A stretch of DNA of 13,947 bases from Candidatus Fermentibacterota bacterium (GCA_016928395.1 JAFGKV010000137.1:1-13947), one strand, 5' to 3'; counted from the first letter of the stretch, positions 1-13,259 are shown. Notes: generated by a model from the sequence alone, not told the origin. A program made the numbers and translations.

Positions 1-990
1 CTGCTGCCGAGCGTCAATCCTCCGCCTGCCATTCCGTTTCTGCATCGCGTCTTTCTGGCGCCGACCCCACGCTCTGCCACCATGCTGGCCGTGTCGCTGG
101 CGCAGAGGATCCTGCGGCCGACGGTTCACCTCATGCACAAGGATTTCACGACCCGGGCGCTGTCCTCCTATGCGGCGCTTCCCCCCATGGAATGGCGGCG
201 CTACGCGACACATGACCACCGGTTGCCTGGAATGACGCCTGATCTGAGAATCATCGGCGATGAGAAGGCCCTGGTCTATGAAGGCACTGTTGTGGTGCGG
301 TTCAAGGGTTGTGTCGGAAACATAGGCCAGGCCGAAGCCAGCGTCCACGAGGACCGCTTCTTTGCCTCAATGGGAATGGCGTTTCTTGACTTCGTTCCGG
401 ATCTTTGCTGTGGCTTCCCCTTTCTTGCCTCGGGAGATCGCTCCTCGGCCCGTACCAGCCGAGAGAGACTATGGGAACGAATCCACGCCGCCGCGCGGTC
501 GGCATGCGAGGTTCTCAACACCGAGAAAGTGGTGGTAATGTCGAGCTGTCCGACATGCCAGGAGTCGTTGCGACGGGCGCACCTGGAGCAGGGTGCCCCT
601 CCGCATCTGTGCATAGCTGACCCGGCCCAGTACGCAAGGGAGCGTGCGAAGATCATCCATCGTCCGACGACACGCCGGGTCGGCCTGAAGGTCCCCTGTC
701 ATGCCATTCCCGAAGCCACGTCGTCCCAGGAGGCTTTGTTGAGGGAGCATGGATTCACTCCGGTTCTCCTGCCCCAATGCTGCGGCATGGCCGGGACCGG
801 CCGCCTTCGGCACCCCGAGGTTGGACTCGTGCTGGCGGAGAGACTGGCGGCGGCTATTCGGGATGCCGGCGTGGACATGGTGGTCTCGGGATGCCCATCG
901 TGCCGCGATGGGATGCAACTCCAGGCCACGATTGATGGGGCACCTCTCCGGGTTGATGACATCTACGGGCTGCTAGTGGAGGCCTCATGA
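1..990 (+). CDS. CCG-domain Fe-S oxidoreductase subunit (GlpC/GlcF/HdrB-like), 5'-partial
   Basis: The frame is open to base 1, so the gene begins outside the window. The internal ATG at 82 is probably not the start. The visible 329 residues contain two cysteine-rich CCG domains. The first has a lone Cys in 'GCVGN', then 31 residues, CCG, 45 residues and CPTC. The second has 'PCHA', then 26 residues, CCG, 35 residues and CPSC. In GlpC, GlcF, LutA and HdrB such domains bind an Fe-S cluster and pass electrons between an FAD-linked 2-hydroxyacid or glycerol-3-phosphate dehydrogenase and the quinone pool or another acceptor. The usual N-terminal 2x[4Fe-4S] ferredoxin domain and any fused or adjacent FAD (GlcD-like) module would lie upstream. 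It is the first visible gene of a tight operon, because its stop overlaps the next ATG by 4 bases. The family is secure; the substrate is unknown. Confidence 0.85.
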   Translation: MLPSVNPPPAIPFLHRVFLAPTPRSATMLAVSLAQRILRPTVHLMHKDFTTRALSSYAALPPMEWRRYATHDHRLPGMTPDLRIIGDEKALVYEGTVVVRFKGCVGNIGQAEASVHEDRFFASMGMAFLDFVPDLCCGFPFLASGDRSSARTSRERLWERIHAAARSACEVLNTEKVVVMSSCPTCQESLRRAHLEQGAPPHLCIADPAQYARERAKIIHRPTTRRVGLKVPCHAIPEATSSQEALLREHGFTPVLLPQCCGMAGTGRLRHPEVGLVLAERLAAAIRDAGVDMVVSGCPSCRDGMQLQATIDGAPLRVDDIYGLLVEAS

Positions 991-1649
991 GAAACCCGTG
1001 GCGAGATCAAGTAATGAGAACGCTGGCGGCACTCCAAGGCATCACCGAACCTCGAGACAGACTGGCGGCCGCATCCGGACTTCTGTTGGGAGCACGATAC
1101 CGGCGCAACCCTCTGGGAGGGGGCCCGGGCCTACCGGAGCGAGGCGTGGTGACCCTTTCCTTCTTCGACTGCGTCACCTATGTGGAATCCGTAGCGGCAT
1201 TGGCACTATCCAAATCGCCCGATGACTACCGTCGCCATCTCATGAAGTTGCGGTACGGAGCCAGGGCGCCTTCGTGGCTGAACCGCCTCCACTACTGGTC
1301 GCAGTGGTCCGACGTTCACGCCCGTCGAGGCATCATCCGTCCCGTGACGCCAACCCGGGACACCGTAAGGATTCGTCGCAGCCTATCAACGATCAAGAGT
1401 GTCCCGCCGGCCGCGGTGGAACTAGTGCTTCACCCGTGGTCGTCCGCCATTCCGGAGGCTGACATCGTCGGGTTCGGATCGCAACGGGCCGACCTAGACG
1501 TGTTTCACGTAGGAATCCTTCGGCGAGACAGACTTCGACACGCGTCCCGCCGGGCCGGCCAGGTCATCGAGGAACCGCTGGCCGATTTCCTTACCCGAGA
1601 GCAGGGCAGTGGCCTCCTTCTTGCACGCCTCCAGGGAGGTGAAGAATGA
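987..1649 (+). CDS. DUF1460 (NlpC/P60-superfamily, amidase-like) protein
   Basis: This 220-residue protein has the DUF1460 signature. A nucleophile-type Cys62 lies in 'FFDCVTYVES', and a C-terminal 'DIVGFGSQRADLDVFHVGI' block contributes His174. This Cys/His pairing is that of NlpC/P60 cysteine peptidases and amidases that act on peptidoglycan stem peptides or similar amides. Characterised relatives are usually exported, but this N-terminus (MRNPWRDQVMRTL) has no hydrophobic signal segment, so I infer a cytoplasmic protein. The ATG overlaps the upstream stop (ATGA), and GGAGG at 978-982 sits 4 bases before it. It is translationally coupled to the Fe-S gene and to the following glycosyltransferase. 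The family call is confident; substrate and reaction are not known. Confidence 0.8.
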   Translation: MRNPWRDQVMRTLAALQGITEPRDRLAAASGLLLGARYRRNPLGGGPGLPERGVVTLSFFDCVTYVESVAALALSKSPDDYRRHLMKLRYGARAPSWLNRLHYWSQWSDVHARRGIIRPVTPTRDTVRIRRSLSTIKSVPPAAVELVLHPWSSAIPEADIVGFGSQRADLDVFHVGILRRDRLRHASRRAGQVIEEPLADFLTREQGSGLLLARLQGGEE

Positions 1650-3004
1650 AGGACCTCGTCGTCTGGAGCACGCCGGAGACCCTGATGCAGCCTGAAGTCT
1701 CCCCAGGATTTCACCATCTTCAGGCCGCGTCGTGGCCCGCGCTTAGATCATCCCTTTGGGAAGCTGCGGAGTCGTCGGGCGAGTTTCTCGGCATGATCTG
1801 GTTTGGCGGCCGAGTGGAGGTCTCTCCTCACGCATGGCAACGGTGCAGATCCGCCGCGGACAGCGGCGCCGATCTGATCTATGGCGACTACCGAACTCCA
1901 CAGGAGCTAGTGCGCACGCTGGATTCCGAGCCAGGCAGCCTGCGGGAGGAATTTGACACGGGCCCGCTGTGGTGTGTGCAAAGGGAAGCTCTCCGGGCCG
2001 CACTGAGCGAACTGCCCGATGCGATCAGCTCTCCCTCGGCCGTCCGCTATGGGTTGCGCCTGGCGTTTCTGCGCGGCCGCACGTCACGCCTCCCCGAGCC
2101 ACTGACACAGGTCCAAAAAAGGCCAGGGGATGACCTCTTCGGCTATGTCCGCGCCGATGCCCGCATCGAACAGGCCGAGTTGGAGACCGTGCTGACCGAC
2201 CATCTCCGCCGGATAGGAGCCTGGCTGCCGCCTCGAACCGCCCCCTACGGGGATGACGGCCCGTATCCCGTGCATGCATCGGTGGTCATACCGGTTCGCA
2301 ATCGGGCACGCACCATCGGCGATGCGGTGGCCAGTGCCCTTCACCAGAAGACGGGTTTCTCGTTCAATGTCCTGGTGGTTGACAATCACTCCGCCGACGG
2401 CACACCCGCCCAGGCGAGACAAGCCGCTGGAGGTAATGCCCGTCTACACGTGATCATCCCCGACCGGCATGATCTGGGCATCGGAGGCTGCTGGAACGTG
2501 GCGTCGTGCTCGCCTTTGGCAGGGCGGTTTCTGGTGCAGCTTGACTCCGACGATGTCTACGCATCCGACCAGTCGCTGCACACCATGGTAACCCTAATCG
2601 ATTCCGGCCCATGGGCCATGGCCGTCGGCGCCTACACGACAGTAGACATGGCGGGCCGGGAAGTGTCTCCCGGCCTCGTGGACCACCGCGAGTGGACTGC
2701 TGAGAACGGCCACAACAATCTCCTTCGCGTCTCTGGCATCGGCGCCCCCCGGACGCTGGCTACGGCCTTCGTGCGCGCGTTCCCCTTCCCCAATGTGAGC
2801 TACGGGGAAGACTACAGCATGGCGCTACAGGTATCACGCCGGCACCATGTCGCGCGAACGCATGAATGCGTGTACTTGGCACGACGTTGGGAGGGCAACA
2901 CGGATCACTGTGTCCGGCCCGAAGTGGCCAGGGATCGGGAAGCCTACAAGAACCGATTGCGAACCATGGAGATCCTGGCCCGCGCTAAGGAGGGCACGTT
3001 GTGA
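1646..3004 (+). CDS. Family 2 glycosyltransferase with an extra N-terminal GT-A-like half
   Basis: This is a 452-residue protein. The C-terminal part (about 210-430) is a GT2 domain. It has the start strand 'ASVVIPVRNR' (211-220), the nucleotide-binding 'LVVDNHSADG' (about 243-252), the metal-binding DSDD at 300-303 and a GED acidic motif at 387-389 where the catalytic base is expected. It should transfer a sugar from a nucleotide-sugar donor to an unknown acceptor. Residues 1-205 also carry GT-A-like pieces ('ADLIYGDYR', 'FDTGPLWCVQREAL') but no first strand or DxD, so this half looks like a degenerate, non-catalytic second domain. No membrane helix or signal peptide is visible. The ATG overlaps the upstream stop by 4 bases, with GGGAGG at 1634-1639. 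The next gene overlaps it in the same way. Confidence 0.85.
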   Translation: MKDLVVWSTPETLMQPEVSPGFHHLQAASWPALRSSLWEAAESSGEFLGMIWFGGRVEVSPHAWQRCRSAADSGADLIYGDYRTPQELVRTLDSEPGSLREEFDTGPLWCVQREALRAALSELPDAISSPSAVRYGLRLAFLRGRTSRLPEPLTQVQKRPGDDLFGYVRADARIEQAELETVLTDHLRRIGAWLPPRTAPYGDDGPYPVHASVVIPVRNRARTIGDAVASALHQKTGFSFNVLVVDNHSADGTPAQARQAAGGNARLHVIIPDRHDLGIGGCWNVASCSPLAGRFLVQLDSDDVYASDQSLHTMVTLIDSGPWAMAVGAYTTVDMAGREVSPGLVDHREWTAENGHNNLLRVSGIGAPRTLATAFVRAFPFPNVSYGEDYSMALQVSRRHHVARTHECVYLARRWEGNTDHCVRPEVARDREAYKNRLRTMEILARAKEGTL

Positions 3005-3975
3005 CGACGTGGGATCATCACCTCATCACACCTGAAGACATGGAATGCTCATGGAACGGCGGTCTTGGCTCGCTGTTGGCGGCGTTGGTGGGCACGGTCA
3101 GGCGAGACTGGCCGATGCTTGAGCAAGGCATCCAGGCCCGGCAGCACGCCGAGAAGCGCGCCGTCATCGTCGGAGAATCGACACCGCTCACTGTGGAGCT
3201 GTTCCACAACCCGGCACGCCTCTCCAGTGTCATCGCAACGCCGGCGGAGGATGCCTGGTGCCCACTGTGCCTGGAGAGCGTTCCCCCGGAGGAGAAGGGT
3301 GTCGCCGTGGGAAGGAACCTGGTTGCCTTGCCGAATCCCGCACCTATCATCCGTGATCACGTGGTGTTCGCCCATCGAGAACACGTGCCGCAGGCCCTGC
3401 ATCCGTGCCTCGAGGATCTGGCCTGGCTGGCCGCCATGGCTGGCGAGGACACGGTGCTCCTGTACAATGGGCCCACTTCCGGCGCATCGTCGCCGTATCA
3501 TCTACACCTGCAAGCCGGCCGAGCGCAGGATCTCCCCCTGACAGGGCAGAAGTTCCCGGACTCCGCGAGCCGCCGAGACACATCTTGGGGCTCTATCGCC
3601 GCCGTGCAGGCTGGCGGGCGCCGGTTCCTGCTGCTGTCAATGGCTGATCCATACCGCCTACCGGATGCATGCCGGCACGCTTTGGGTCTCTTCCAGCCTG
3701 ACGGCGAGTTTCCCCTCAATCTCGTGATCTGGCGGCGTGGCGCCATCCACGCCGCCCTCTTTCCTAGGAGCCGTCACCGCCCCTCCTGCTACTTTCTCCC
3801 CGAAGACCAACGACTGGTGATCAGCCCAGGCTCGGTGGAGATGGCGGGGCTGGTCGTGCTTCCCCGCCGGCAGGATTGGCAGCGCATGGAGCCATGCACT
3901 CTCCAGCGCATTTATCGGGAGGTGTGCCTTGACGACGATGCCTGGCAAAGGCTTCTCGCGAGACTCTCGTCCTGA
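3001..3975 (+). CDS. DUF4922-like HIT/GalT-superfamily nucleotidyltransferase or phosphorylase
   Basis: This is a 324-residue protein. Its key motif is 'YNGPTSGASSPYHLHLQ' (about 155-171), matching the N-G-x-x-SGAS-x-(H)-x-H-x-Q signature of GalT, Ap4A phosphorylase and GDP-hexose phosphorylases. His167 or His169 would form the nucleotidyl-enzyme intermediate. Upstream, 'LPNPAPIIRDHVVFAHREHVPQ' resembles the conserved strand and His/Gln segment of the same families. A CxxC at Cys87-Cys90 ('WCPLC') could bind zinc or be structural. By family it would move a nucleoside monophosphate between phosphate or sugar phosphate and a nucleotide or nucleotide sugar. The substrate cannot be read from sequence. 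The start is GTG at 3001 (GTGA overlap with the previous stop), with AAGGAGG at 2987-2993. The protein is predicted to be cytosolic. I recall DUF4922 genes beside SpoIID genes in Bacteroidota, but could not check this. Confidence 0.7.
   Translation: MTTWDHHLITPEDMECSWNGGLGSLLAALVGTVRRDWPMLEQGIQARQHAEKRAVIVGESTPLTVELFHNPARLSSVIATPAEDAWCPLCLESVPPEEKGVAVGRNLVALPNPAPIIRDHVVFAHREHVPQALHPCLEDLAWLAAMAGEDTVLLYNGPTSGASSPYHLHLQAGRAQDLPLTGQKFPDSASRRDTSWGSIAAVQAGGRRFLLLSMADPYRLPDACRHALGLFQPDGEFPLNLVIWRRGAIHAALFPRSRHRPSCYFLPEDQRLVISPGSVEMAGLVVLPRRQDWQRMEPCTLQRIYREVCLDDDAWQRLLARLSS
3917..3922 (+). promoter_or_regulatory. Ribosome binding site that decides the TTG start of the SpoIID gene
   Basis: GGGAGG lies inside the end of the DUF4922-like gene, 6 bases before a TTG at 3929. 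The alternative ATG at 3938 would be 15 bases away, so TTG is the better start. The genes then overlap by 47 bases in different frames. Confidence 0.6.
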
Positions 3976-5305
3976 GCCCGCCCTTCCGGGCGTCGAGCCA
4001 TTGCTCCGCGTCGGCATCAGCCAGCCGGCCGCCTCGTTGCGGTTCTTCCTATCCGGGCGGTACCAGGTGGGAGACTCAACCATAGGACCAGGCTGGTGCA
4101 CCGCCCACGCCGAGTACCCCCACGCCGCTGTGCTTTGGGATTACACCGAATGCAGGACCGCACAACCGACGCTGCTTGCCCCACTCCGGCCTGCATGTTC
4201 GTTCACCCTACCCTGTGTTGATGTCGGCGCCGGGTTCCATTGGTGCCATCGCGAAGATCTCGTCTACACGGGAACCCTGGAGCTGCTCCCCACACAGAGG
4301 AACGAAATCATCGCCGTGAACCGGATCGGCCTGGAGGAGTATCTGGAGAGCGTGATTTCCTCGGAGATGAACCCCGAGGCCCCTTCCGCATTCCTCGAGG
4401 CCCACGCAGTGGTCGCCCGAAGCTGGGCCCTGTCCCAACTGGGACCTCCGCGGCAGGTTGACGAACCACGCCCTGCCGGAATTGACATATGGGAGTGGTT
4501 TGACCGCGGCAACCATGAGCTGTTCGACCTCTGCGCCGACGATCACTGCCAGCGCTACCACGGACAAACCCGCAAGGTCTCCCACGCCGTCGACGCAGTG
4601 AGGCGCACGCGCGGCACCGTGTTGCGAGCGGGCGACGCCGTGGTCGACACCCGGTTCTCCAAATGTTGCGGCGGCATAACCGAGCTGTTTACCACTGCAT
4701 GGGGAGGGCCTTCACCCGCGGGCATCAGCAGCGTGGTGGATGCCGCCTGCCTGGCTTCGCCGTGGTCGCCCCGGGGCACTGAAGAGACCGGCGCGTCTGA
4801 ATGGATTCTCGGTCGCCCACCCGTCGAATGTGCCGTGGAAGATTCCTCGATCCTGGCGCGCATCCTTCTACCGATGGACCGTTCCACCACAGACTTCTTC
4901 CGCTGGTCAGAGGAGTACTCCCAGGAACGCCTGGCATCCTTGATCGAGGAGAAGACCTGCGCAGGAATCGGGCACATCCGAGGCCTCCTGCCTCTGCGCC
5001 GCGGTCCATCAGGGAGAATCGAGATCTTGGAAATACGGGGCACGAAAGGGGTTCTGCGAGTGGGCAAGGAACTGAGCATCCGCCGCCTCCTGTCGCCCAC
5101 GCATCTCAAGAGCTCGGCCTTCGTGACGGCGGATGAGGACCACTCGAACGGCGTGCCGCGCAAACTCCGGCTCATGGGGGCAGGGTGGGGGCACGGCGTC
5201 GGCATGTGCCAGATCGGCGCGGGCGTCATGGCCGCCCGCGGCGCCGAGTGCCGGGCCATCCTGAACCGGTACTTCCCGGAGGCAACTGCGGGCCTTTGGT
5301 ATTGA
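3929..5305 (+). CDS. SpoIID/LytB-domain protein, apparently cytoplasmic
   Basis: This is a 458-residue protein with a full SpoIID/LytB (stage II sporulation D, amidase-enhancer) domain. Glu146 in 'SVISSEMNPEAP' corresponds to the catalytic Glu of SpoIID lytic transglycosylases. Downstream come the conserved 'CADDHCQRYHGQ' and 'RFSKCCGGITE' (the usual zinc or structural Cys region) and the closing 'GWGHGVGMCQIGAGVMAARG'. In B. subtilis SpoIID this fold cleaves glycan strands stripped of stem peptide. Known members are exported or membrane-anchored. Here the N-terminus (MTTMPGKGFSRDSRPEP) is polar and leads straight into the 'LLRVGIS' first strand, so export is not predicted. The start is TTG, chosen from its ribosome binding site. 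It is the last gene of the operon and is followed by a convergent gene. The domain is certain; activity on peptidoglycan in this setting is inferred only. Confidence 0.85.
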   Translation: MTTMPGKGFSRDSRPEPALPGVEPLLRVGISQPAASLRFFLSGRYQVGDSTIGPGWCTAHAEYPHAAVLWDYTECRTAQPTLLAPLRPACSFTLPCVDVGAGFHWCHREDLVYTGTLELLPTQRNEIIAVNRIGLEEYLESVISSEMNPEAPSAFLEAHAVVARSWALSQLGPPRQVDEPRPAGIDIWEWFDRGNHELFDLCADDHCQRYHGQTRKVSHAVDAVRRTRGTVLRAGDAVVDTRFSKCCGGITELFTTAWGGPSPAGISSVVDAACLASPWSPRGTEETGASEWILGRPPVECAVEDSSILARILLPMDRSTTDFFRWSEEYSQERLASLIEEKTCAGIGHIRGLLPLRRGPSGRIEILEIRGTKGVLRVGKELSIRRLLSPTHLKSSAFVTADEDHSNGVPRKLRLMGAGWGHGVGMCQIGAGVMAARGAECRAILNRYFPEATAGLWY

Positions 5306-5372: not shown

Positions 5373-6515
5373 CTACTTCAAGACAATGGGCTGTCCAGTG
5401 CTCCCGAGATGGGTCAGAATTCGTAGCATGTAGAAGCCCGAAGGAGTACCAGCGCGATCCCATCGTACGATATGCGAACCGGTGGCCATGCCCTGCCAAA
5501 GCTGGGCAACCATCCTGCCCTGCATGTCATAGAGCATCACTTCCGCCGGTCCTGTCTGCGGCACGGAGAACTGCACATCCGCGTGATCGGCCACGGGCTG
5601 CGGCGAAAAAGCAAGGCTCAGCCCCTTGGGCACCTCCGCGGGCACCCTGGCCATAACGGGGCCGAACACCTCAGACAGTCCGGAGAAATCAACCTGCTCC
5701 AGCCAGTAATAGTAGGTCATGCCGGCAGCGACATCCCGATCGAGAAATCCATACGACTGTGGGCTCAACGTGGTGCCCGCGCCGGGAATCAGTTCGGCGG
5801 TAATGCGAGTTCGGTCTGACATGCCGATGGCTCGGAGGATATTGAACCCCATGTTATTCGACTCGGATGCCGTGCTCCAGCTGAGCTCGACTTCCTCGCG
5901 GTCGACCGTCGCTGCGAATGACACGAGTTCCACGGGCACGGCGCCTGCCGCGTTATGGATAACGGCGGTACTTGATGTTGTAGAGATGGAAGTGTTGTCG
6001 ATGTAGATCACTGAGTCGGCGCCGGCAGTAGCGTAGATTCGAGCCTCCACGACGAAGCCCTCATCGTCACCACTACTGGCGAAAGTCCACTGATGCGAGA
6101 GCTGTTCCCACCCGATGCCCGACGAATAGGAGGCACTACCCGAAGCGCTACCCGAATAGGAGCTGATGTCGTTAGGATCGCTGGTATAGTGGGCCCAAAT
6201 CCGCCCCGAAGGGTAGGTGCCCCCGGTCACGTCGTAGACATAGAAACTAGCATCGATGACGTCACCGTCGGCGCACCCCGTGATCCACCAGACATAGACC
6301 TGGGGAGTGGAGCCTTCGTTCGGCGATTTTGTGTACTTCAAGCTCCGCGAGCCCGACTGTGCCTGCTCGGCAGTGTTCTCCAATACGACATTGTTGTACG
6401 TGCCCAGTGCGGTAGAGACTCCATCTTCCCAGTTGAAGGTCATGCTCTGCTGGGCGACGGCGACCCCGCCGCAGGTGACCAGCACCGCCGATACCGCCAC
6501 TACGAGTGCTCTCAT
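5373..6515 (-). CDS. Secreted protein with jelly-roll-like N-domain and type IX/FlgD-like C-terminal domain (copy B)
   Basis: This is a 380-residue protein. The start is the ATG at 6515 because AAGGAGG (6527-6521) lies 5 bases before it; a longer reading frame runs to 6560. Residues 1-21 form a signal peptide (MRALVVAVSAVLVTCGGVAVA, cut before QQSMTF). The next ~185 residues are beta-rich and aromatic, with 'WWITGCADGDVIDASFYVYDV', 'GRIWAHYTSD' and 'DDEGFVVEARIY', resembling a carbohydrate-binding jelly roll. A linker 'AVPVELVSFAA...SWSTASESNNMGFNILRA' and a Fn3-like part follow. The last ~80 residues ('FSPQPV...MLYDMQGRMV...GFYMLRIL...VLK') match T9SS type A sorting or FlgD Ig-like domains. 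It is probably exported and surface-attached or released. No catalytic motif is recognised. It is a close paralogue of the next gene. Confidence 0.8.
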   Translation of the reverse strand: MRALVVAVSAVLVTCGGVAVAQQSMTFNWEDGVSTALGTYNNVVLENTAEQAQSGSRSLKYTKSPNEGSTPQVYVWWITGCADGDVIDASFYVYDVTGGTYPSGRIWAHYTSDPNDISSYSGSASGSASYSSGIGWEQLSHQWTFASSGDDEGFVVEARIYATAGADSVIYIDNTSISTTSSTAVIHNAAGAVPVELVSFAATVDREEVELSWSTASESNNMGFNILRAIGMSDRTRITAELIPGAGTTLSPQSYGFLDRDVAAGMTYYYWLEQVDFSGLSEVFGPVMARVPAEVPKGLSLAFSPQPVADHADVQFSVPQTGPAEVMLYDMQGRMVAQLWQGMATGSHIVRWDRAGTPSGFYMLRILTHLGSTGQPIVLK

Positions 6516-6520
6516 GGGTA

Positions 6521-6527
6521 CCTCCTT
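6521..6527 (-). promoter_or_regulatory. Ribosome binding site of secreted protein B
   Basis: AAGGAGG on the minus strand sits 5 bases before ATG 6515. It fixes the start after a 15-codon upstream extension. The arrangement is identical in the paralogue at 7982. Confidence 0.75.
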
Positions 6528-6622
6528 GAGACACGAGGGTTGACTGAAGAACCGCCGCACATCCGTCCCTGCGGGAGGATTCGACAGGAATCCGCCGCAG
6601 GTCAGCGATCACTATGCCATAG

Positions 6623-6845: not shown

Positions 6846-7982
6846 CTACTTCACCACAATCGGATGGCTGACGCTCCCCGAGGCCGTGGTGGCGCGCAGC
6901 ACATACGAGCCCGCAGCCAGACCATTACGCGACAGGTCGAACATACAGGAACCGGCGACAACATGCCGCTCACAGACAGCGCTGACCTGGCGACCCTGCA
7001 GGTCATAGAGGCTGACGCTGAGTCTGCCGCTGTGGGGAATGTCGAGCTGGATCTGAGCGGCGTCCTCAATGGGACTCGGTGCCACCGAGAGGGCGAGCCC
7101 TGAGGGCAAGCCGGCCGGGACCAGCACAGTAACAGGGCCGTGCATGGCAGTGGTTCCCTCAAAGTCAACCTGCTCCAACCAGTAGCGATAGGTCATACCC
7201 TGTGAGACCGTACGGTCGACGAAAGAGTATGTATGTGGGGTAGAGGCGGTACCGGCACCAGAGATCATCTCTGTGCTGACGGTCGTGAGTTCGCCGGAGC
7301 CAAGACCGCGGAGAATATTGAAGCCAAGGTTGTTGAGCTCTGAGGCGGTGCTCCAGGTCAGTTGGACCTCCGCGGGTGTCGCCGAGGCCGAGAACGACGC
7401 CAAATCCACAGGAACCGCGCCACCGGCATTATGGATCACTGCAGTGTTGGAGCTGGTCCTGACGTAACCGTTGTCGATGTACAGAACGTTCGCGCCCTCG
7501 CCGCTGTAGATTCGGGCCTCCACGACGAAACCCTCGTCATCGCCGCTGTTAACGAAAATCCACTGGAAGGAGAGTTCGTTCCAGCCAGTGCCATCCGAGT
7601 ATGTTGAGCTACCGCCAGCAGAGCCCGTGTAGGACATAACATCGGTATTGTTGGTGTAGTGGGCCCAGATGCGGCCGCTCGGATTGGCACCCGGGGTGAC
7701 GTCATAGACGTAGAAGCTGGCGTCAATGGTATCACCGTCTGCGCAGTCGGTGATCCACCAAATGTAGGCTTGCGGAGTGCCGCTCAACGGGTCCTCCCAG
7801 AACTTCAGACTGCGCACGCCGCTCTGGGCCTGTTCAGCAGAGTTCTCGAGAAGGGCGTTGCCATTGGTACCCAATGCCGTAGACAGACCGTCTTCCCAGT
7901 CGAAGGTCATACTCTGCTGGGCGACGGCGACAGCACTGCAGACGATCAGTGCGACCATTGACAATAGTACGCGCGCGCTCAC
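6846..7982 (-). CDS. Secreted protein with jelly-roll-like N-domain and type IX/FlgD-like C-terminal domain (copy A)
   Basis: This is a 378-residue paralogue of the gene at 5373-6515, with the same domain order. The start is GTG at 7982: AAGGAGG (7994-7988) lies 5 bases before it, exactly as in copy B, and the protein then begins in register with copy B. The signal peptide (VSARVLLSMVALIVCSAVAVA, first residue Met) is followed by 'QQSMTFDWEDGLSTALGT'. The N-domain carries 'WWITDCADGDTIDASFYVYDV', 'SGRIWAHYTNN' and 'GDDEGFVVEARIYS'. The linker is 'AVPVDLASFSA...STASELNNLGFNILRG'. The C-terminal sorting-like domain has 'VSLYDLQGRQVSAV' and ends 'PIVVK'. The N-domain is far better conserved between copies than the C-terminal domain. 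Its function is unknown; carbohydrate or surface binding is the best guess from fold type. Confidence 0.8.
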   Translation of the reverse strand: MSARVLLSMVALIVCSAVAVAQQSMTFDWEDGLSTALGTNGNALLENSAEQAQSGVRSLKFWEDPLSGTPQAYIWWITDCADGDTIDASFYVYDVTPGANPSGRIWAHYTNNTDVMSYTGSAGGSSTYSDGTGWNELSFQWIFVNSGDDEGFVVEARIYSGEGANVLYIDNGYVRTSSNTAVIHNAGGAVPVDLASFSASATPAEVQLTWSTASELNNLGFNILRGLGSGELTTVSTEMISGAGTASTPHTYSFVDRTVSQGMTYRYWLEQVDFEGTTAMHGPVTVLVPAGLPSGLALSVAPSPIEDAAQIQLDIPHSGRLSVSLYDLQGRQVSAVCERHVVAGSCMFDLSRNGLAAGSYVLRATTASGSVSHPIVVK

Positions 7983-7987
7983 GGACA

Positions 7988-7994
7988 CCTCCTT
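7988..7994 (-). promoter_or_regulatory. Ribosome binding site of secreted protein A
   Basis: AAGGAGG on the minus strand, 5 bases before GTG 7982. This choice makes both paralogues start at the same place and drops an 11-codon extension. Confidence 0.75.
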
Positions 7995-8086
7995 GACGTT
8001 GACGAGCAGAACCACGACCCGCCCTGGCGGACCCCGAGACCACGCACCTCCGGGACCTATGGCAGGCCGACACGCGACCTGAGTGA

Positions 8087-8224: not shown

Positions 8225-10180
8225 TCAGGGCGCCGTATCGGCGTGCGGTACGTCGGCAGCGCCCAGACTCCGGCGCATCAAGGCCACGGATGGGCTCTGG
8301 CTCTCCACCGCCTCGGACCGACGGATGAAGTCTGTCGCGAGGGCCGTATCTCCCCGGGCCATTGCAAGAGCAAACCCAATGCTCAATGCGCGAAGGTCGA
8401 GCGGCATGATGGAGAGGTACTGATCAAGCCGCGTCTGGGCCTCGCGGAACCTGCGAGCCTCGAAGTGGCCGGCCACGGAGTACCACAGCAGCTCCGGATG
8501 GACCGGATTCACTCGCAAACCATCTTCCGCAACCTCCAGGACGGCAGCCCGATCGCCCCGCGCATCTCGCTTCAGGTAGGCCCTCGCCAGAGATGAGTGC
8601 ACTTCAGCCACATTGATCGCTTTTCGTGCGCGAAGGGCCTCCAGTCTCTCGATGGCATCATCAAGGCGGCCCATATCCAGAAGATCCTGCGCGTCGCTGA
8701 GGTCCGCGTAGGCAGCGGTGCCTCGCCGGACTCCGAGATAGTCGACGCTGAGGGCGCCGATCAGAATGGCAGCCGCGCCCGCTCGCAATGCTGCTGCCAT
8801 GCGCCGACGGCAGACAATGCTCTCGTAGATCCTGACCAGGGTGACGGCAGCCCCGATGGCAATGAGTGGCACGAGCGGCACCCGATACCGGCCGGTCACG
8901 AAGAAGGCGACGATGGTCAGAGAGTAGACGGCTAGAACCTGCAGCAGCAGCGACACGAACCGCTGATTGAGGGAGGAATCCGTCGAACGGTGCCCGGAAC
9001 CCGGGCGGTGTAGCAGCTCCGGGAGCCCTACCAGGAACAGTCCCAGCAACAGCCCAAAGGTCACGGGGCTGAAGCGAAGGGCCCAGTATCGCCCGCGACG
9101 CGTCTCCAAAGGTTCATTATTGGGGATCTCCACGCTCCCGATCAGTGCCGCGACTTTTCTCCCGGTCAGTCGCAGCCAATGTCCTGGCTCCTCGATGATG
9201 AAGTTGAGGCCCCGCCGCATCCAATAGTGCGAGATCTCCGATGGCTTGTGTGGGCGGCCCACGTCCCGCTGTGCGATGGCTACGGCATCCTCATACCCTC
9301 CCCACCAGGTATGCCGGGTCCCCGGCACTACGGCCTCGATGCCATTGGACTCTGGGTTATTCCCAATGAAGAAGTTCACCCCTCCCTGGGAACTCACCAC
9401 AACCCAATCCCCGCCGACCACCCGGTTTCGAAGCGTGACTGCCAAGGGAGGCGCCAGGAAACCCGCTGCCAGCAGCAGGGTGAAGCCTCCTCTCCGGCCG
9501 GTCGGCAGCGCACGCACCGACCAGAGAACAATGAATGGGAAAAGGGCCAAGGCATTGGGGCGGGTTATGGAGAGGAGGCCGAAAAGGAGACCCGCCAACC
9601 CAGCCAACGCCGGGTTCATTCTCTGGGCCGACACGAACAGAGCCAGCAAACCCGCCAACAGAAAAAAGACCTCAAGCACCGGCAGCAGGAGTTCGGCGTC
9701 GTAGTAGGTCAACACCCACGAGCACGCGCACAGAAGTCCTGCGGCCAGGCCGACTCTCCCTCCAAGGCAACGCGCCGCTACTGCGTAGGCCAGAACACAC
9801 GAGCACGACCCGATGATGACCTGGATCGCACGAAGCAGCAGCAGGCTCTGGCCGAACAGCCTAAAGAGACCGGCCAGGAAATAGGGGTACAGCGGTGCCC
9901 GGAAGTAGGGCGTGCCCTTGATCTGCTCGTACGGAGGAGTCCAGACGCCGGTGGCAAGGCCCTTGGCCCATTCCACGTGATACTCCTCATCCATATAGAC
10001 GAGGTTGAACTCCGGCTGGCGTGATGCCTCGGCCAGATAGAACCCCCGGAACGCCAGGGCCACCGCGAAGACCAGCACGCCACGGCGCCACTCGAACTCA
10101 AGACTCTTGGAATGCCTGACCTCAGGAAGCGCATTCGGGCTCCTACGAGAGTCTGCCCGCCGTCTGCCGTGGTATGTCAT
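8225..10180 (-). CDS. GT39/PMT_2-type polytopic membrane glycosyltransferase with C-terminal TPR-like region
   Basis: This is a 651-residue protein. After a basic cytoplasmic N-terminus, a helix starts near residue 34. The first periplasmic loop carries the acidic 'YMDEEYHVEWAKG' (D64, E65), followed by 'YFRAPLYPYFLAG' (about 92-104). This is the hallmark of PMT_2/ArnT-like enzymes that move a sugar from a polyprenyl-phosphate donor to a protein or envelope glycan. About ten hydrophobic helices follow up to residue ~490, with the typical loop 'FIGNNPESNG' (271-280) and 'EPGHWLRLTGRK' near 341-352. Residues ~491-625 form helical pairs like TPRs ('LLDMGRLDDAIERLEALRA', 'NPVHPELLW'), expected outside the membrane. 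The ATG has an imperfect AAGGCAGG before it. It lies 48 bases after the L,D-transpeptidase gene, so co-transcription is likely. Acceptor unknown. Confidence 0.85.
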   Translation of the reverse strand: MTYHGRRRADSRRSPNALPEVRHSKSLEFEWRRGVLVFAVALAFRGFYLAEASRQPEFNLVYMDEEYHVEWAKGLATGVWTPPYEQIKGTPYFRAPLYPYFLAGLFRLFGQSLLLLRAIQVIIGSCSCVLAYAVAARCLGGRVGLAAGLLCACSWVLTYYDAELLLPVLEVFFLLAGLLALFVSAQRMNPALAGLAGLLFGLLSITRPNALALFPFIVLWSVRALPTGRRGGFTLLLAAGFLAPPLAVTLRNRVVGGDWVVVSSQGGVNFFIGNNPESNGIEAVVPGTRHTWWGGYEDAVAIAQRDVGRPHKPSEISHYWMRRGLNFIIEEPGHWLRLTGRKVAALIGSVEIPNNEPLETRRGRYWALRFSPVTFGLLLGLFLVGLPELLHRPGSGHRSTDSSLNQRFVSLLLQVLAVYSLTIVAFFVTGRYRVPLVPLIAIGAAVTLVRIYESIVCRRRMAAALRAGAAAILIGALSVDYLGVRRGTAAYADLSDAQDLLDMGRLDDAIERLEALRARKAINVAEVHSSLARAYLKRDARGDRAAVLEVAEDGLRVNPVHPELLWYSVAGHFEARRFREAQTRLDQYLSIMPLDLRALSIGFALAMARGDTALATDFIRRSEAVESQSPSVALMRRSLGAADVPHADTAP

Positions 10181-10228: not shown

Positions 10229-11191
10229 TCAGCGTCCATTCCCGCGAGTATCTCCGCGTTCTTCACACGATGCGTCACCACCTCCTGCGTCACGTGTCGG
10301 TGAGAGAGCACTCTGGATACCTGGCCCGCTCACGCCGTGGATGTTGACCGTCTCGTTACCCTCGGTGCGTGATCCTGGTTTCGGGCCCAAGTGCTGACTC
10401 TGCCCACCGGTTACACTGAGGGTCAGAGCCATGGAATCAACCGCGACGTCCACGGGATGGATAGTGAGATCCAGACGTTGCCCCCACGGAGCGTATGCCA
10501 GGAGTTCCTCCAGATCGCGGTGCTCCATCACAATGCACCCGAAACTCCAGTTCTCGCACGTTGCACACGAGTCGCGCCGTGTCCGCGACGTATGAATCAG
10601 GATCTGCGCCCCCAGAGGCGTATTCTGGGGCGGCGGTACCCCCGCCTGCAGGGCCAACTCGATGTGCCGAAACTCGGTGTACGTCAGCTCACCCGTGAGG
10701 AAACCCCTGAATGCATCCACCCAATTGGGATAGAATACATAGAAGCATGATCCGTATGATGGGCTGACATGCCTCATAATCAGGTAGTTGCCTTCGGGCG
10801 TGCGCTTGTCACCCAGCCGGAGCTTGGCGCCGATGGGTGTGCCGCTGAGCGCCACGGGATAGACCTTCAGAGTATGCCCGCATGCCTCTGCTACCGCCAC
10901 GAACTGAGACTTGTACACGTGCAATCTGGGCGGGCACGCAGCCCACGATGCCCCGACCTGCCCGTAGGCCTCGGCCAGCGTCTTCTCGCGGTCGGCCCTG
11001 ATGGCTCGTTCTACCCAGCCTGAGCGCACCGCGTGGGGTATCACTGTCGTGCGCTCCAGCATCTCCCACGGAATGCCATGGTACAACGATGTGTCTGGAC
11101 GTGCCGCTGCGCTCAAGATTCCCGGCATGCAGCACAACGAACCCACCACGAGCACCGGTATCCGGAAACGGCCCTTCGGGCAGTACACCAT
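10229..11191 (-). CDS. Secreted L,D-transpeptidase (YkuD domain) with a long polar tail
   Basis: This is a 320-residue protein. ATG 11191 is chosen over the frame opening at 11233 because AAGGAG (11201-11196) lies 4 bases upstream and the protein then begins with a signal peptide (basic MVYCPKGRFR, hydrophobic core, 'ILSAAA'). The YkuD core has 'YPVALSGTPIGAKLRLGDKR' then 'TPEGNY' (to residue ~136), His200 in 'LIHTS', and the catalytic block 'NWSFGCIVM' with Ser216, Gly218 and Cys219. Such enzymes make 3-3 crosslinks in peptidoglycan or attach proteins to it from the periplasm. The stretch between the His and the Cys contains an extra CATC. After the domain ends near residue 246, some 75 residues are polar, Gly-rich and domain-free, which is unusual. 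It may be a linker-like tail or the result of a frameshift. It is followed closely by the GT39 gene. Confidence 0.85.
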   Translation of the reverse strand: MVYCPKGRFRIPVLVVGSLCCMPGILSAAARPDTSLYHGIPWEMLERTTVIPHAVRSGWVERAIRADREKTLAEAYGQVGASWAACPPRLHVYKSQFVAVAEACGHTLKVYPVALSGTPIGAKLRLGDKRTPEGNYLIMRHVSPSYGSCFYVFYPNWVDAFRGFLTGELTYTEFRHIELALQAGVPPPQNTPLGAQILIHTSRTRRDSCATCENWSFGCIVMEHRDLEELLAYAPWGQRLDLTIHPVDVAVDSMALTLSVTGGQSQHLGPKPGSRTEGNETVNIHGVSGPGIQSALSPTRDAGGGDASCEERGDTRGNGR

Positions 11192-11195
11192 AGGT

Positions 11196-11201
11196 CTCCT
11201 T
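11196..11201 (-). promoter_or_regulatory. Ribosome binding site of the L,D-transpeptidase
   Basis: AAGGAG on the minus strand, 4 bases before ATG 11191. A 6-bp stem with a 4-base loop (11204-11219, CTGGCT/AGCCAG) lies directly upstream in the leader and could affect access to it. Confidence 0.6.
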
Positions 11202-11243
11202 GGCTGGCTGTGAAGCCAGATGCAAATGATCAAGGGTCACGCG

Positions 11244-11272
11244 AAATACCCGCATGGTGTTGCGCTCGTCAA
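11244..11272 (-). promoter_or_regulatory. Possible promoter of the L,D-transpeptidase/GT39 unit
   Basis: On the minus strand TTGACG (11272-11267), a 17-base spacer and GTATTT (11249-11244) lie about 50 bases before ATG 11191. The -10 is weak. I saw no convincing promoter for the divergent histidine ammonia-lyase gene in the same 163-base gap. Confidence 0.25.
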
Positions 11273-11354
11273 TCCGGCCTTGCACCACAGGCATACTTCG
11301 GTCAACATTGTGGCGATACTCACAGAATCACACGGAACAGGAGTGAGAGTTCCC

Positions 11355-13259
11355 ATGCTCACAGAGATCGCTGTTGATCCCGCATCAATTGCCACCGTTG
11401 CGGTCACAGGCCAGACCCTGACCTTGAGCGAGGTGGTAGCAGTCGCCCGGCACCGAGCCCGGATCCGCCTGGACCCCCAGGCTGCGCGACGAGTTGCCCA
11501 ATCCAGGACAACCGTGGAGAGCCTCGTGCAAAGCGGTCAGAAGGTGTATGGCCTCACCACGGGGTTCGGCTCGCTTCGCGACGTCGCGATACCGGCCTCA
11601 GAAGTGCGGCTTCTTCAGCACAACCTCGTTCGCAGCCATGCCGCGGGCGTTGGTGAGCCGTTGGGAGAAGACATCGTTCGCGCCATGATGCTCCTGCGGC
11701 TGAATACTCTGGCCGCGGGCTACTCGGGCATCCGCGTGGAGACCCTGGAGCGAATCGTCACACTCCTCAATGCCGACGTCTTTCCCTGGGTCCCCTCTCG
11801 CGGATCAGTGGGTGCCTCGGGAGACCTAGCGCCGCTGGCCCATCTGGCTCTGGTCGTGATAGGCGATGCTGCCGGCAGGATATGCAGCCAGGATGCTCCT
11901 TCTGCACCGCTTCGCCAGGGTTCGTATCGAGACCGACCCCGTTTTGAGCACTTTGTCGACCTCAGTCCCGGAGTGCTTGAGCACGCCTGCGGACTGGAGG
12001 CCTACGAGCTGGATGCTAAGGAAGGCTTGGCTCTCACCAATGGCACCCAGCTCATGACGGCGCTGGGAGCCTTGGCCCTCTTCGATGTCCTCACGGCCTT
12101 CGAAGCCTCTGTGGCAGGCGCGGCAGCTAGCCTGGAGGCCATCAAAGGGTGCATGCGGGCCTTCGACCCAAGAGTCGCCCAGCTCCGCCGCATGGTCGAA
12201 CAGGGCCAGGTCGCTGCGTGGCTTAACCTCCTGATGGGCGGCAGTACCATCATCTCCGGACGCGCCTACCTTCCCTACTTGAACAGGGTTCGCTCACATA
12301 TCACCGGTGTGATGGCCTCCGGTCCACCTCACTCCGTTGCAGACACCCTCACCGCCGCCGAAGCACAATGCACGATCGCCCTGGACGTAGCGGGCCGTGG
12401 GGAATCGCCGGGGGACAATGTCCGCGAGATCTCACGGCTCTTGGCACAGGCCATGGGCGAGATGGCATCCACGGGGATGGACCGTGAACGAGCCATTCTA
12501 GCGCCCGCTCTGGCCGCCGTGGAGGCCGTCGCCCCTTCCTCGCCGCGGGTTCAGGATGACTACAGCTTCCGGTGCACTCCTCAGGTTCTTGGGAGCGCTC
12601 TGTGGGTCGTGCGGACAGCACTGCAGCGCATATCCAACGAACTGAACGCCGTGACCGACAATCCTCTGGTGTTTCCCGGGGAACTCGGGGAGAACAGCGT
12701 GGTCAGTGGAGGAAACTTCCACGGCCAGCCTATATCCATGGCCATGGATATGGCGGCCATGGCAGCCAGCGAAATCGCCTCCATATCCGAACGGCGGTCA
12801 GCAAAGCTGCTGGACTCAACGTTCAACTACGGGCTTCCTGCGCATCTCGTGCCGCGGAGCGGCCTCAACTCCGGGTTCATGCTGGCGCAGTACACCGCGG
12901 CTGCTCTCGTCTCCGAATCCAAACTCCTCTCCCACCCCGCCAGTGTTGACTCCATTCCCACATGCGAGTCTACCGAAGATCACGTCAGCATGGGGCCTCT
13001 GGCAGGACTCAAGCTCCATCGGGTCGTGGAGAACACGGAGCATGTAGTGGCTATCGAGCTACTTCTTGCCTGCCAGGCTCTGGACATGTGGCAGCCGCTC
13101 AGGCCGGGGCGCGGCGTCGAGGCAGTCCGTCGGTTGGTTCGAGAGTCGGGTATCCCCTTCGTTGAGCACGACGTGCCGCTCTATCCGCTCATGGAGGGAT
13201 GTGTCGCTCTGATCCGAAACCGGAGTATCCACTACGCGTTACAGCGCACCATGAGCTGA
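11355..13259 (+). CDS. hutH: Histidine ammonia-lyase with two insertions
   Basis: This is a 634-residue MIO-family lyase that deaminates L-histidine to urocanate in the cytoplasm, the first step of histidine breakdown. The cofactor triad Ala154-Ser155-Gly156 lies in 'GSVGASGDLAPL'. Compared with Pseudomonas putida HutH (positions from memory), His95 in 'RSHAAG' equals His83, Asn229 in 'NGTQ' equals Asn195, Tyr403 and Arg406 in 'DDYSFR' equal Tyr280 and Arg283, and Glu541 in 'TEDHVSM' equals Glu414. The His and Glu favour histidine over Phe/Tyr. Bacterial HutH is about 510 residues. The extra length comes from ~12 N-terminal residues, ~22 between the MIO and Asn229, and ~89 between Asn229 and Tyr403. 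ATG 11355 is preferred (AGGAG at 11339-11343, 11 bases away); GTG 11343 is an in-frame alternative. No hutU, hutI or regulator is visible. Confidence 0.85.
   Translation: MLTEIAVDPASIATVAVTGQTLTLSEVVAVARHRARIRLDPQAARRVAQSRTTVESLVQSGQKVYGLTTGFGSLRDVAIPASEVRLLQHNLVRSHAAGVGEPLGEDIVRAMMLLRLNTLAAGYSGIRVETLERIVTLLNADVFPWVPSRGSVGASGDLAPLAHLALVVIGDAAGRICSQDAPSAPLRQGSYRDRPRFEHFVDLSPGVLEHACGLEAYELDAKEGLALTNGTQLMTALGALALFDVLTAFEASVAGAAASLEAIKGCMRAFDPRVAQLRRMVEQGQVAAWLNLLMGGSTIISGRAYLPYLNRVRSHITGVMASGPPHSVADTLTAAEAQCTIALDVAGRGESPGDNVREISRLLAQAMGEMASTGMDRERAILAPALAAVEAVAPSSPRVQDDYSFRCTPQVLGSALWVVRTALQRISNELNAVTDNPLVFPGELGENSVVSGGNFHGQPISMAMDMAAMAASEIASISERRSAKLLDSTFNYGLPAHLVPRSGLNSGFMLAQYTAAALVSESKLLSHPASVDSIPTCESTEDHVSMGPLAGLKLHRVVENTEHVVAIELLLACQALDMWQPLRPGRGVEAVRRLVRESGIPFVEHDVPLYPLMEGCVALIRNRSIHYALQRTMS

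Follow-up and report, generated by a model that had tools for sequence, protein, structure and literature searches.

The DNA analysed here, referred to as the window, is the entire 13,947-nucleotide contig JAFGKV010000137.1 (C176) of a 4.79-Mb, 343-contig assembly from a Candidatus Fermentibacterota bacterium (GCA_016928395.1; G000), and its first 5,305 positions carry five overlapping genes on the + strand. These encode, in order, the C-terminal part of a flavin adenine dinucleotide (FAD)/Fe-S oxidoreductase with a CCG cysteine-rich domain (1..990; PF02754, 8.9e-14), an AmiA-like (DUF1460) amidase of the NlpC/P60 type (987..1649; PF07313, 4.6e-30), a family 2 glycosyltransferase (GT2) with two GT-A-type domains (1646..3004; PF00535, 7.9e-16), a DUF4922 protein, i.e., a predicted nucleotidyl enzyme with the fold of diadenosine tetraphosphate (Ap4A) phosphorylase and GalT (3001..3975; PF16269, 5.3e-23), and a SpoIID/LytB-type lytic transglycosylase domain protein (3929..5305; PF08486, 3.2e-21; TIGR02669, 2.3e-39). 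GT2, DUF4922 and SpoIID constitute a conserved, co-evolving module that is found across several phyla. A preliminary description of this DNA had assigned the same five families, which Pfam confirms, and had reported the overlaps, which are indeed present on direct inspection of the open reading frames (ORFs): ATGA at 987-990, ATGA at 1646-1649, GTGA at 3001-3004, and an overlap between DUF4922 and SpoIID of 47 bases if SpoIID starts at TTG 3929 or 38 bases if it starts at ATG 3938. A good GGGAGGTG sits a few bases ahead of TTG 3929. Because the window is a complete contig, the first gene is open at its 5' end.

The phylum sample consisted of the window genome and two others (G001 and G002), with completeness of 94, 82, and 98%, respectively, and the five genes occur in identical order in all three, which represent two genera. 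The order AmiA-GT2-DUF4922-SpoIID is also present at four loci (L015, L019, L059, and L063) of genomes titled Binatota or Proteobacteria, and in the Binatota-like metagenome-assembled genome of L015 these four genes overlap by 4, 4, and 37 bases. Since the two other phylum genomes and L015 keep it, the gene order is not due to chance. A GT2 alignment was scanned against 84,980 species genomes, yielding at least 586 relatives, of which the best 80 were made into loci with ORFs predicted, clustered, and named where clusters were recurrent; these 80 loci are the closest relatives and no random sample. In 44 loci, GT2 is flanked by 5 kb or more on each side; of these, DUF4922 is present in 35, SpoIID in 29, an AmpG-like transporter in 21, and the AmiA-like amidase in 9. 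GT2 and DUF4922 are neighbours on a shared strand in 42 cases, with a spacing within 60 bases in 32 of them. The core domains also occur as fusions, e.g., a single 1200-aa frame in Prevotellaceae (L056) comprises GT2, DUF4922, and SpoIID, another frame of this three-domain type runs off its contig (L067), and the two-domain combinations GT2+DUF4922 and DUF4922+SpoIID were observed as well. Pairwise distance-matrix correlations are 0.81-0.88 inside the trio versus 0.43-0.63 with AmpG. Among 118 evenly drawn Bacteroidota genomes, GT2 is present in 18 and the SpoIID subfamily in exactly these 18, often on separate contigs (Fisher 1.3e-21, ignoring kinship). This conserved linkage supports the earlier claim that the genes form one functional unit; a place of the FAD/Fe-S oxidase in its core is not supported.

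As for this oxidase, a GlcD-like FAD domain had been predicted to lie upstream of the window. The prediction holds because the gene is intact in G002, where it encodes a 1045-aa protein with FAD_binding_4, FAD-oxidase_C, a 4Fe-4S stretch, and CCG, and because the FAD half is located at the end of contig C24 in G001; the C-terminal third of the G002 protein is 42% identical to the window CCG protein. A search of G000 did not recover the FAD half that belongs to the window gene, probably because of an assembly gap. The G002 homologue matches GlcD/GlcF-type domains, yet it scores far under the equivalog cut-offs for D-lactate/glycolate oxidases, and the truncated window copy matches CCG only. Within the locus set, the oxidase adjoins the module only in the three phylum genomes; it is read as a clade-specific addition to the core module, and its membership of the core pathway is not supported. 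The proposal that it might serve as a 2-hydroxyacid oxidase for the lactate of N-acetylmuramic acid (MurNAc) was not upheld either, as no match to the MurQ etherase was obtained in G000, G001, or G002, and lactate use via MurQ is likewise not supported in the window lineage. That the oxidase was not found beside the module outside the phylum would suit a different explanation, namely, that the five genes are mere neighbours, the Fe-S gene stemming from a lactate/glycolate oxidase unit and the others being unrelated enzymes. The conservation of all five genes in order across two genera (three genomes), the four-gene order in Binatota-like genomes, the fusions, and the exact co-occurrence of GT2 and SpoIID make this explanation highly improbable, and for the four downstream genes it is already contradicted.

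The individual proteins carry the residues expected for their families. The amidase matches PF07313 with 105 bits (cut-off 27), has solved relatives (4h4j, 4q5k, and 4q68), lacks a signal peptide, and has C62 and H174, which are invariant in a 12-member AmiA-like alignment. DUF1460 amidases are reportedly specific for anhydro-muropeptides, as is said to have been found by Xu et al. in 2014 in the journal Structure. GT2 has no membrane helix, and its C-terminal GT-A-type domain contains the acidic motif LDSDD and a conserved RRWEGN. In its AlphaFold2 model (predicted local distance difference test, pLDDT, 92), the whole length aligns with chondroitin polymerase K4CP, likewise a two-domain protein (Z 24.8), with a root-mean-square deviation (rmsd) of 21.9 because the two domains of K4CP sit differently from those of GT2, and single GT-A enzymes match the C-terminal half. 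Two GT2 matches elsewhere (G111:C116:71048-72496 and G076:C140:4451-5911) contain one in-frame TAG each and may represent pseudogenes, errors, or recoding.

For DUF4922, the AlphaFold2 model (pLDDT 95) aligns with yeast Apa2 (Z 22.8, rmsd 3.2 Å over 268 residues), followed by a DUF4931 protein (Z 10.8), ADP-glucose phosphorylase (10.1), and GalT (9.4). An alignment of 43 sequences has invariant H167-x-H169-x-Q171 and C87-x-x-C90 as well as two more invariant histidines. According to the model, DUF4922 has the Ap4A-phosphorylase/GalT fold with the catalytic HxHxQ motif, and nucleotidyl activity is predicted. It differs from Apa2, GalT, and ADP-glucose phosphorylase in its low identity (~14%) and in the invariant CxxC, which we take to resemble the GalT zinc site. 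In a limited literature search, reports on DUF4922 were found only for plant GDP-galactose phosphorylases.

SpoIID scores 76 bits for PF08486 (cut-off 23) and 136 bits for TIGR02669 (cut-off 83). Glu127 of SSEM and the motif WGHGVGxCQ are invariant in 31 sequences, and E127 aligns with VVASEM of the solved SpoIID 4rwr (match 3.2e-29). The protein thus shares the SpoIID domain, the catalytic-type Glu, and the WGHGVG motif with SpoIID/LytB of Bacillus and Waddlia, but differs from these in that it is predicted to be cytosolic, is linked to GT2 and DUF4922, in some cases by fusion, and belongs to a subfamily in which a CADDHCQ stretch is conserved. It was not seen in any sporulation or septum context. 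On denuded glycan, Waddlia SpoIID gives non-anhydro, muramidase-type products (PMC6635528). The compartment was assessed by a simple N-terminal hydropathy check: a hydrophobic segment was found in 0 of 52 GT2 and 0 of 57 DUF4922 frames and was absent from 35 of 36 SpoIID frames, the flagged one being a fusion, so that by hydropathy none of the 35 non-fused members has the N-terminus of a classical exported SpoIID. The same check flags NamZ (7/8) and a xanthan-lyase-like family (8/8). Judged by their N-termini, the module enzymes appear to stay in the cytosol.

The genes that recur around GT2 encode AmpG-like major facilitator superfamily transporters, AmgK-like and MurU-like proteins, MurQ, NagK/MurK-like kinases, glycoside hydrolase family 3 (GH3) proteins, NamZ, NagB-like proteins, SSF transporters, and M15 peptidases; in the window itself, the amidase is the only adjacent recycling-type gene. 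Because the homologues recur together with peptidoglycan-recycling genes across phyla, the tentative reading of the row in the preliminary description as salvage of peptidoglycan sugars stands as the best one. It is very likely that the module belongs to a recycling pathway. The row as such is probably a cytosolic peptidoglycan-recycling gene set with GT2-DUF4922-SpoIID as its core, the substrates and reactions being hypothetical.

The genes could instead serve the synthesis or decoration of a glycan that is secreted or part of the envelope, e.g., that of glycoproteins of the type IX secretion system (T9SS), with SpoIID and the amidase merely opening space in the wall. GT2 does resemble polysaccharide synthases and wall-teichoic-acid transferases, proteins with a T9SS tail are encoded next to the five genes in the window as well as in G001 and G002, and the Tannerella forsythia operon discussed below was formerly labelled glycosylation-related. 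However, the named clusters that recur in at least 3 of the 80 neighbourhoods include no flippase or sugar-biosynthesis set, and AmpG, MurQ, AmgK, MurU, NamZ, and kinases are found instead; moreover, SpoIID, which shows no export signal in the hydropathy check, occurs in fusions with GT2 and DUF4922. A role in glycan assembly is therefore considered very unlikely.

In T. forsythia, the genes Tanf_08345-08385 comprise xanthan lyase, gtf, gtf, lytB, ampG, and ybbC, followed by murT, murK, and murQ, and these gene types sit on one transcript, as described in two publications (PMC5388701, PMC7670621). The same types of gene, among them lytB of the SpoIID type and ybbC of the NamZ type, recur in the GT2 loci, and the second T. 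forsythia gtf is probably DUF4922, judging from gene order. The window differs in that ampG, namZ, and mur genes are not adjacent and in that an AmiA-like amidase and the FAD/Fe-S oxidase are added. From the match to the T. forsythia operon it follows that the module is part of an operon for muropeptide utilisation in which gtf and lytB are, in the accessible text, given no step. Accordingly, the former statement that no pathway with this gene set had been described needs to be qualified: the ampG operon of T. forsythia, which contains lytB and ampG as well as a pair of gtf genes, has been published (PMC5388701), and what stands is that gtf and lytB are given no role there. T. forsythia uses and grows on N-acetylglucosamine (GlcNAc)-anhydro-MurNAc (anhMurNAc) via AmpG, and no AnmK orthologue is predicted for it; the fate of anhMurNAc in this bacterium is described as one that 'remains to be explored' (PMC7670621).

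A comparable gap is seen in the other genomes that contain the module. The route known from Caulobacter and Pseudomonas leads through AnmK and MupP to AmgK-MurU (PMC13046382). Its goal, conversion of MurNAc to uridine diphosphate (UDP)-MurNAc, would be shared by the module genomes. AmgK-like and MurU-like genes lie side by side or within ~3 kb in 16 of 30 (G000-G029) and as an overlapping pair with weak scores in the window genome and likewise in G001. In contrast to that route, neither the window genome nor any of those 16 gave a match to AnmK, which converts anhMurNAc to MurNAc-6-phosphate; AnmK was found in 0/16 genomes with a neighbouring pair versus 6/14 without (Fisher 0.005, ignoring kinship), and genome searches gave no match in G000-G002. 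For comparison, MurQ was found in 14 of the 30 and an AmpG-like protein in 25, and there was no match to a NagZ-like protein in 12. Within Bacteroidota, AnmK is rarer in genomes with the module (7/18, 39%) than in those without (73/100, 73%; Fisher 0.0066, ignoring kinship), and the GH3 matches mostly bear a signal segment. At another locus (L130 3166-4596; G018:C11), an AmgK-like kinase carries a fused domain of the RapZ C-terminal type (NF003828, 6.5e-30) and overlaps a MurU-like gene, and built-in amino-sugar sensing is possible for this fusion. The window lineage also has a second recycling unit, in which LdcA overlaps a NagZ-like GH3 protein without a signal peptide (L127 3904-6332, G000:C218; L128 2158-4559, G002:C253).

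Since 24 of the 30 genomes, including all with an AmgK-MurU pair, have no AnmK match, the module is proposed as a source of free MurNAc from (GlcNAc-)anhMurNAc; the simplest reading is that another source supplies free MurNAc and that the module is the best candidate for it. In this proposal, the amidase would free imported (anhydro)muropeptides of their stem peptide, and SpoIID would act on the anomeric bond of MurNAc, by hydrolysis or by ring opening of (GlcNAc-)anhMurNAc, giving a product with free MurNAc that could pass to AmgK/MurU (or MurK/MurQ). Ring opening by SpoIID is conceivable, though doubtful. For the GlcNAc part, GT2 and DUF4922 would form a nucleotide-sugar couple: GT2 would shift GlcNAc between a nucleoside diphosphate (NDP) and the MurNAc sugar, with DUF4922 interconverting NDP-sugar plus inorganic phosphate and NDP plus sugar-1-phosphate via a nucleotidyl-histidine. 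A reversed GT2 would turn disaccharide and NDP into NDP-GlcNAc, like sucrose synthase, and the energy of the glycosidic bond would be conserved via phosphorolysis by DUF4922; this direction of the couple is put forward as a rather unlikely one. The full route, in which SpoIID opens the ring, GT2 runs in reverse, and DUF4922 regenerates NDP, so that GlcNAc-anhMurNAc would yield free MurNAc and GlcNAc-1-phosphate inside the cell independently of AnmK and NagZ, is on the whole unlikely.

Several observations weigh against recycling as outlined here. AnmK and the module are found together in 6 of the 30 genomes and in the 7 of 18 Bacteroidota mentioned, which excludes the module as a strict AnmK replacement. 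GT2 is the sole find among five searched families in 17 loci, some of which are short or have the partners elsewhere. No AmpG-like protein was found in G000-G002 at 1e-20, so that the proposal does not account for import in these genomes. The AmgK/MurU-like assignments score far under curated cut-offs. Because the window genome has its NagZ-like enzyme without a signal peptide, GlcNAc removal there needs no GT2, which weakens GT2 as a NagZ substitute in that genome. The presence of AnmK plus MurQ alongside the module in some genomes, together with the fact that GT2 and DUF4922 are transferase types, would be in keeping with a detoxifying or signalling branch, in which GT2 glycosylates or DUF4922 nucleotidylates (anh)MurNAc from imported muropeptides with no return to UDP-MurNAc. 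The neighbours, however, are catabolic and salvage kinases and uridylyltransferases, not regulators, and such a branch is given a low probability.

The remainder of the window contains a paralogous pair of proteins encoded at 5373-6560 (-) and 6846-8015 (-), the first of which carries a T9SS type A sorting tail; in G001 and G002, too, a relative lies directly downstream of SpoIID and faces it. Further along are a PMT_2-type membrane glycosyltransferase with a C-terminal TPR-like stretch (8225-10180, -), a YkuD-type L,D-transpeptidase (10229-11233, -), which is a cell-wall enzyme unlinked to the five-gene row, and a histidine ammonia-lyase (HutH; 11220-13259, +), whose family match is interrupted at residues ~347-435 by an apparent insertion of ~80 residues.

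AnmK is absent from T. forsythia and, by gene content, from many Bacteroidota and deltaproteobacterial genomes. The GT2-DUF4922-SpoIID module is a concrete and testable candidate for the step that is missing in bacteria without the textbook enzymes, and, if the proposal is true, it would provide a biological context for DUF4922 and for a predicted intracellular SpoIID.

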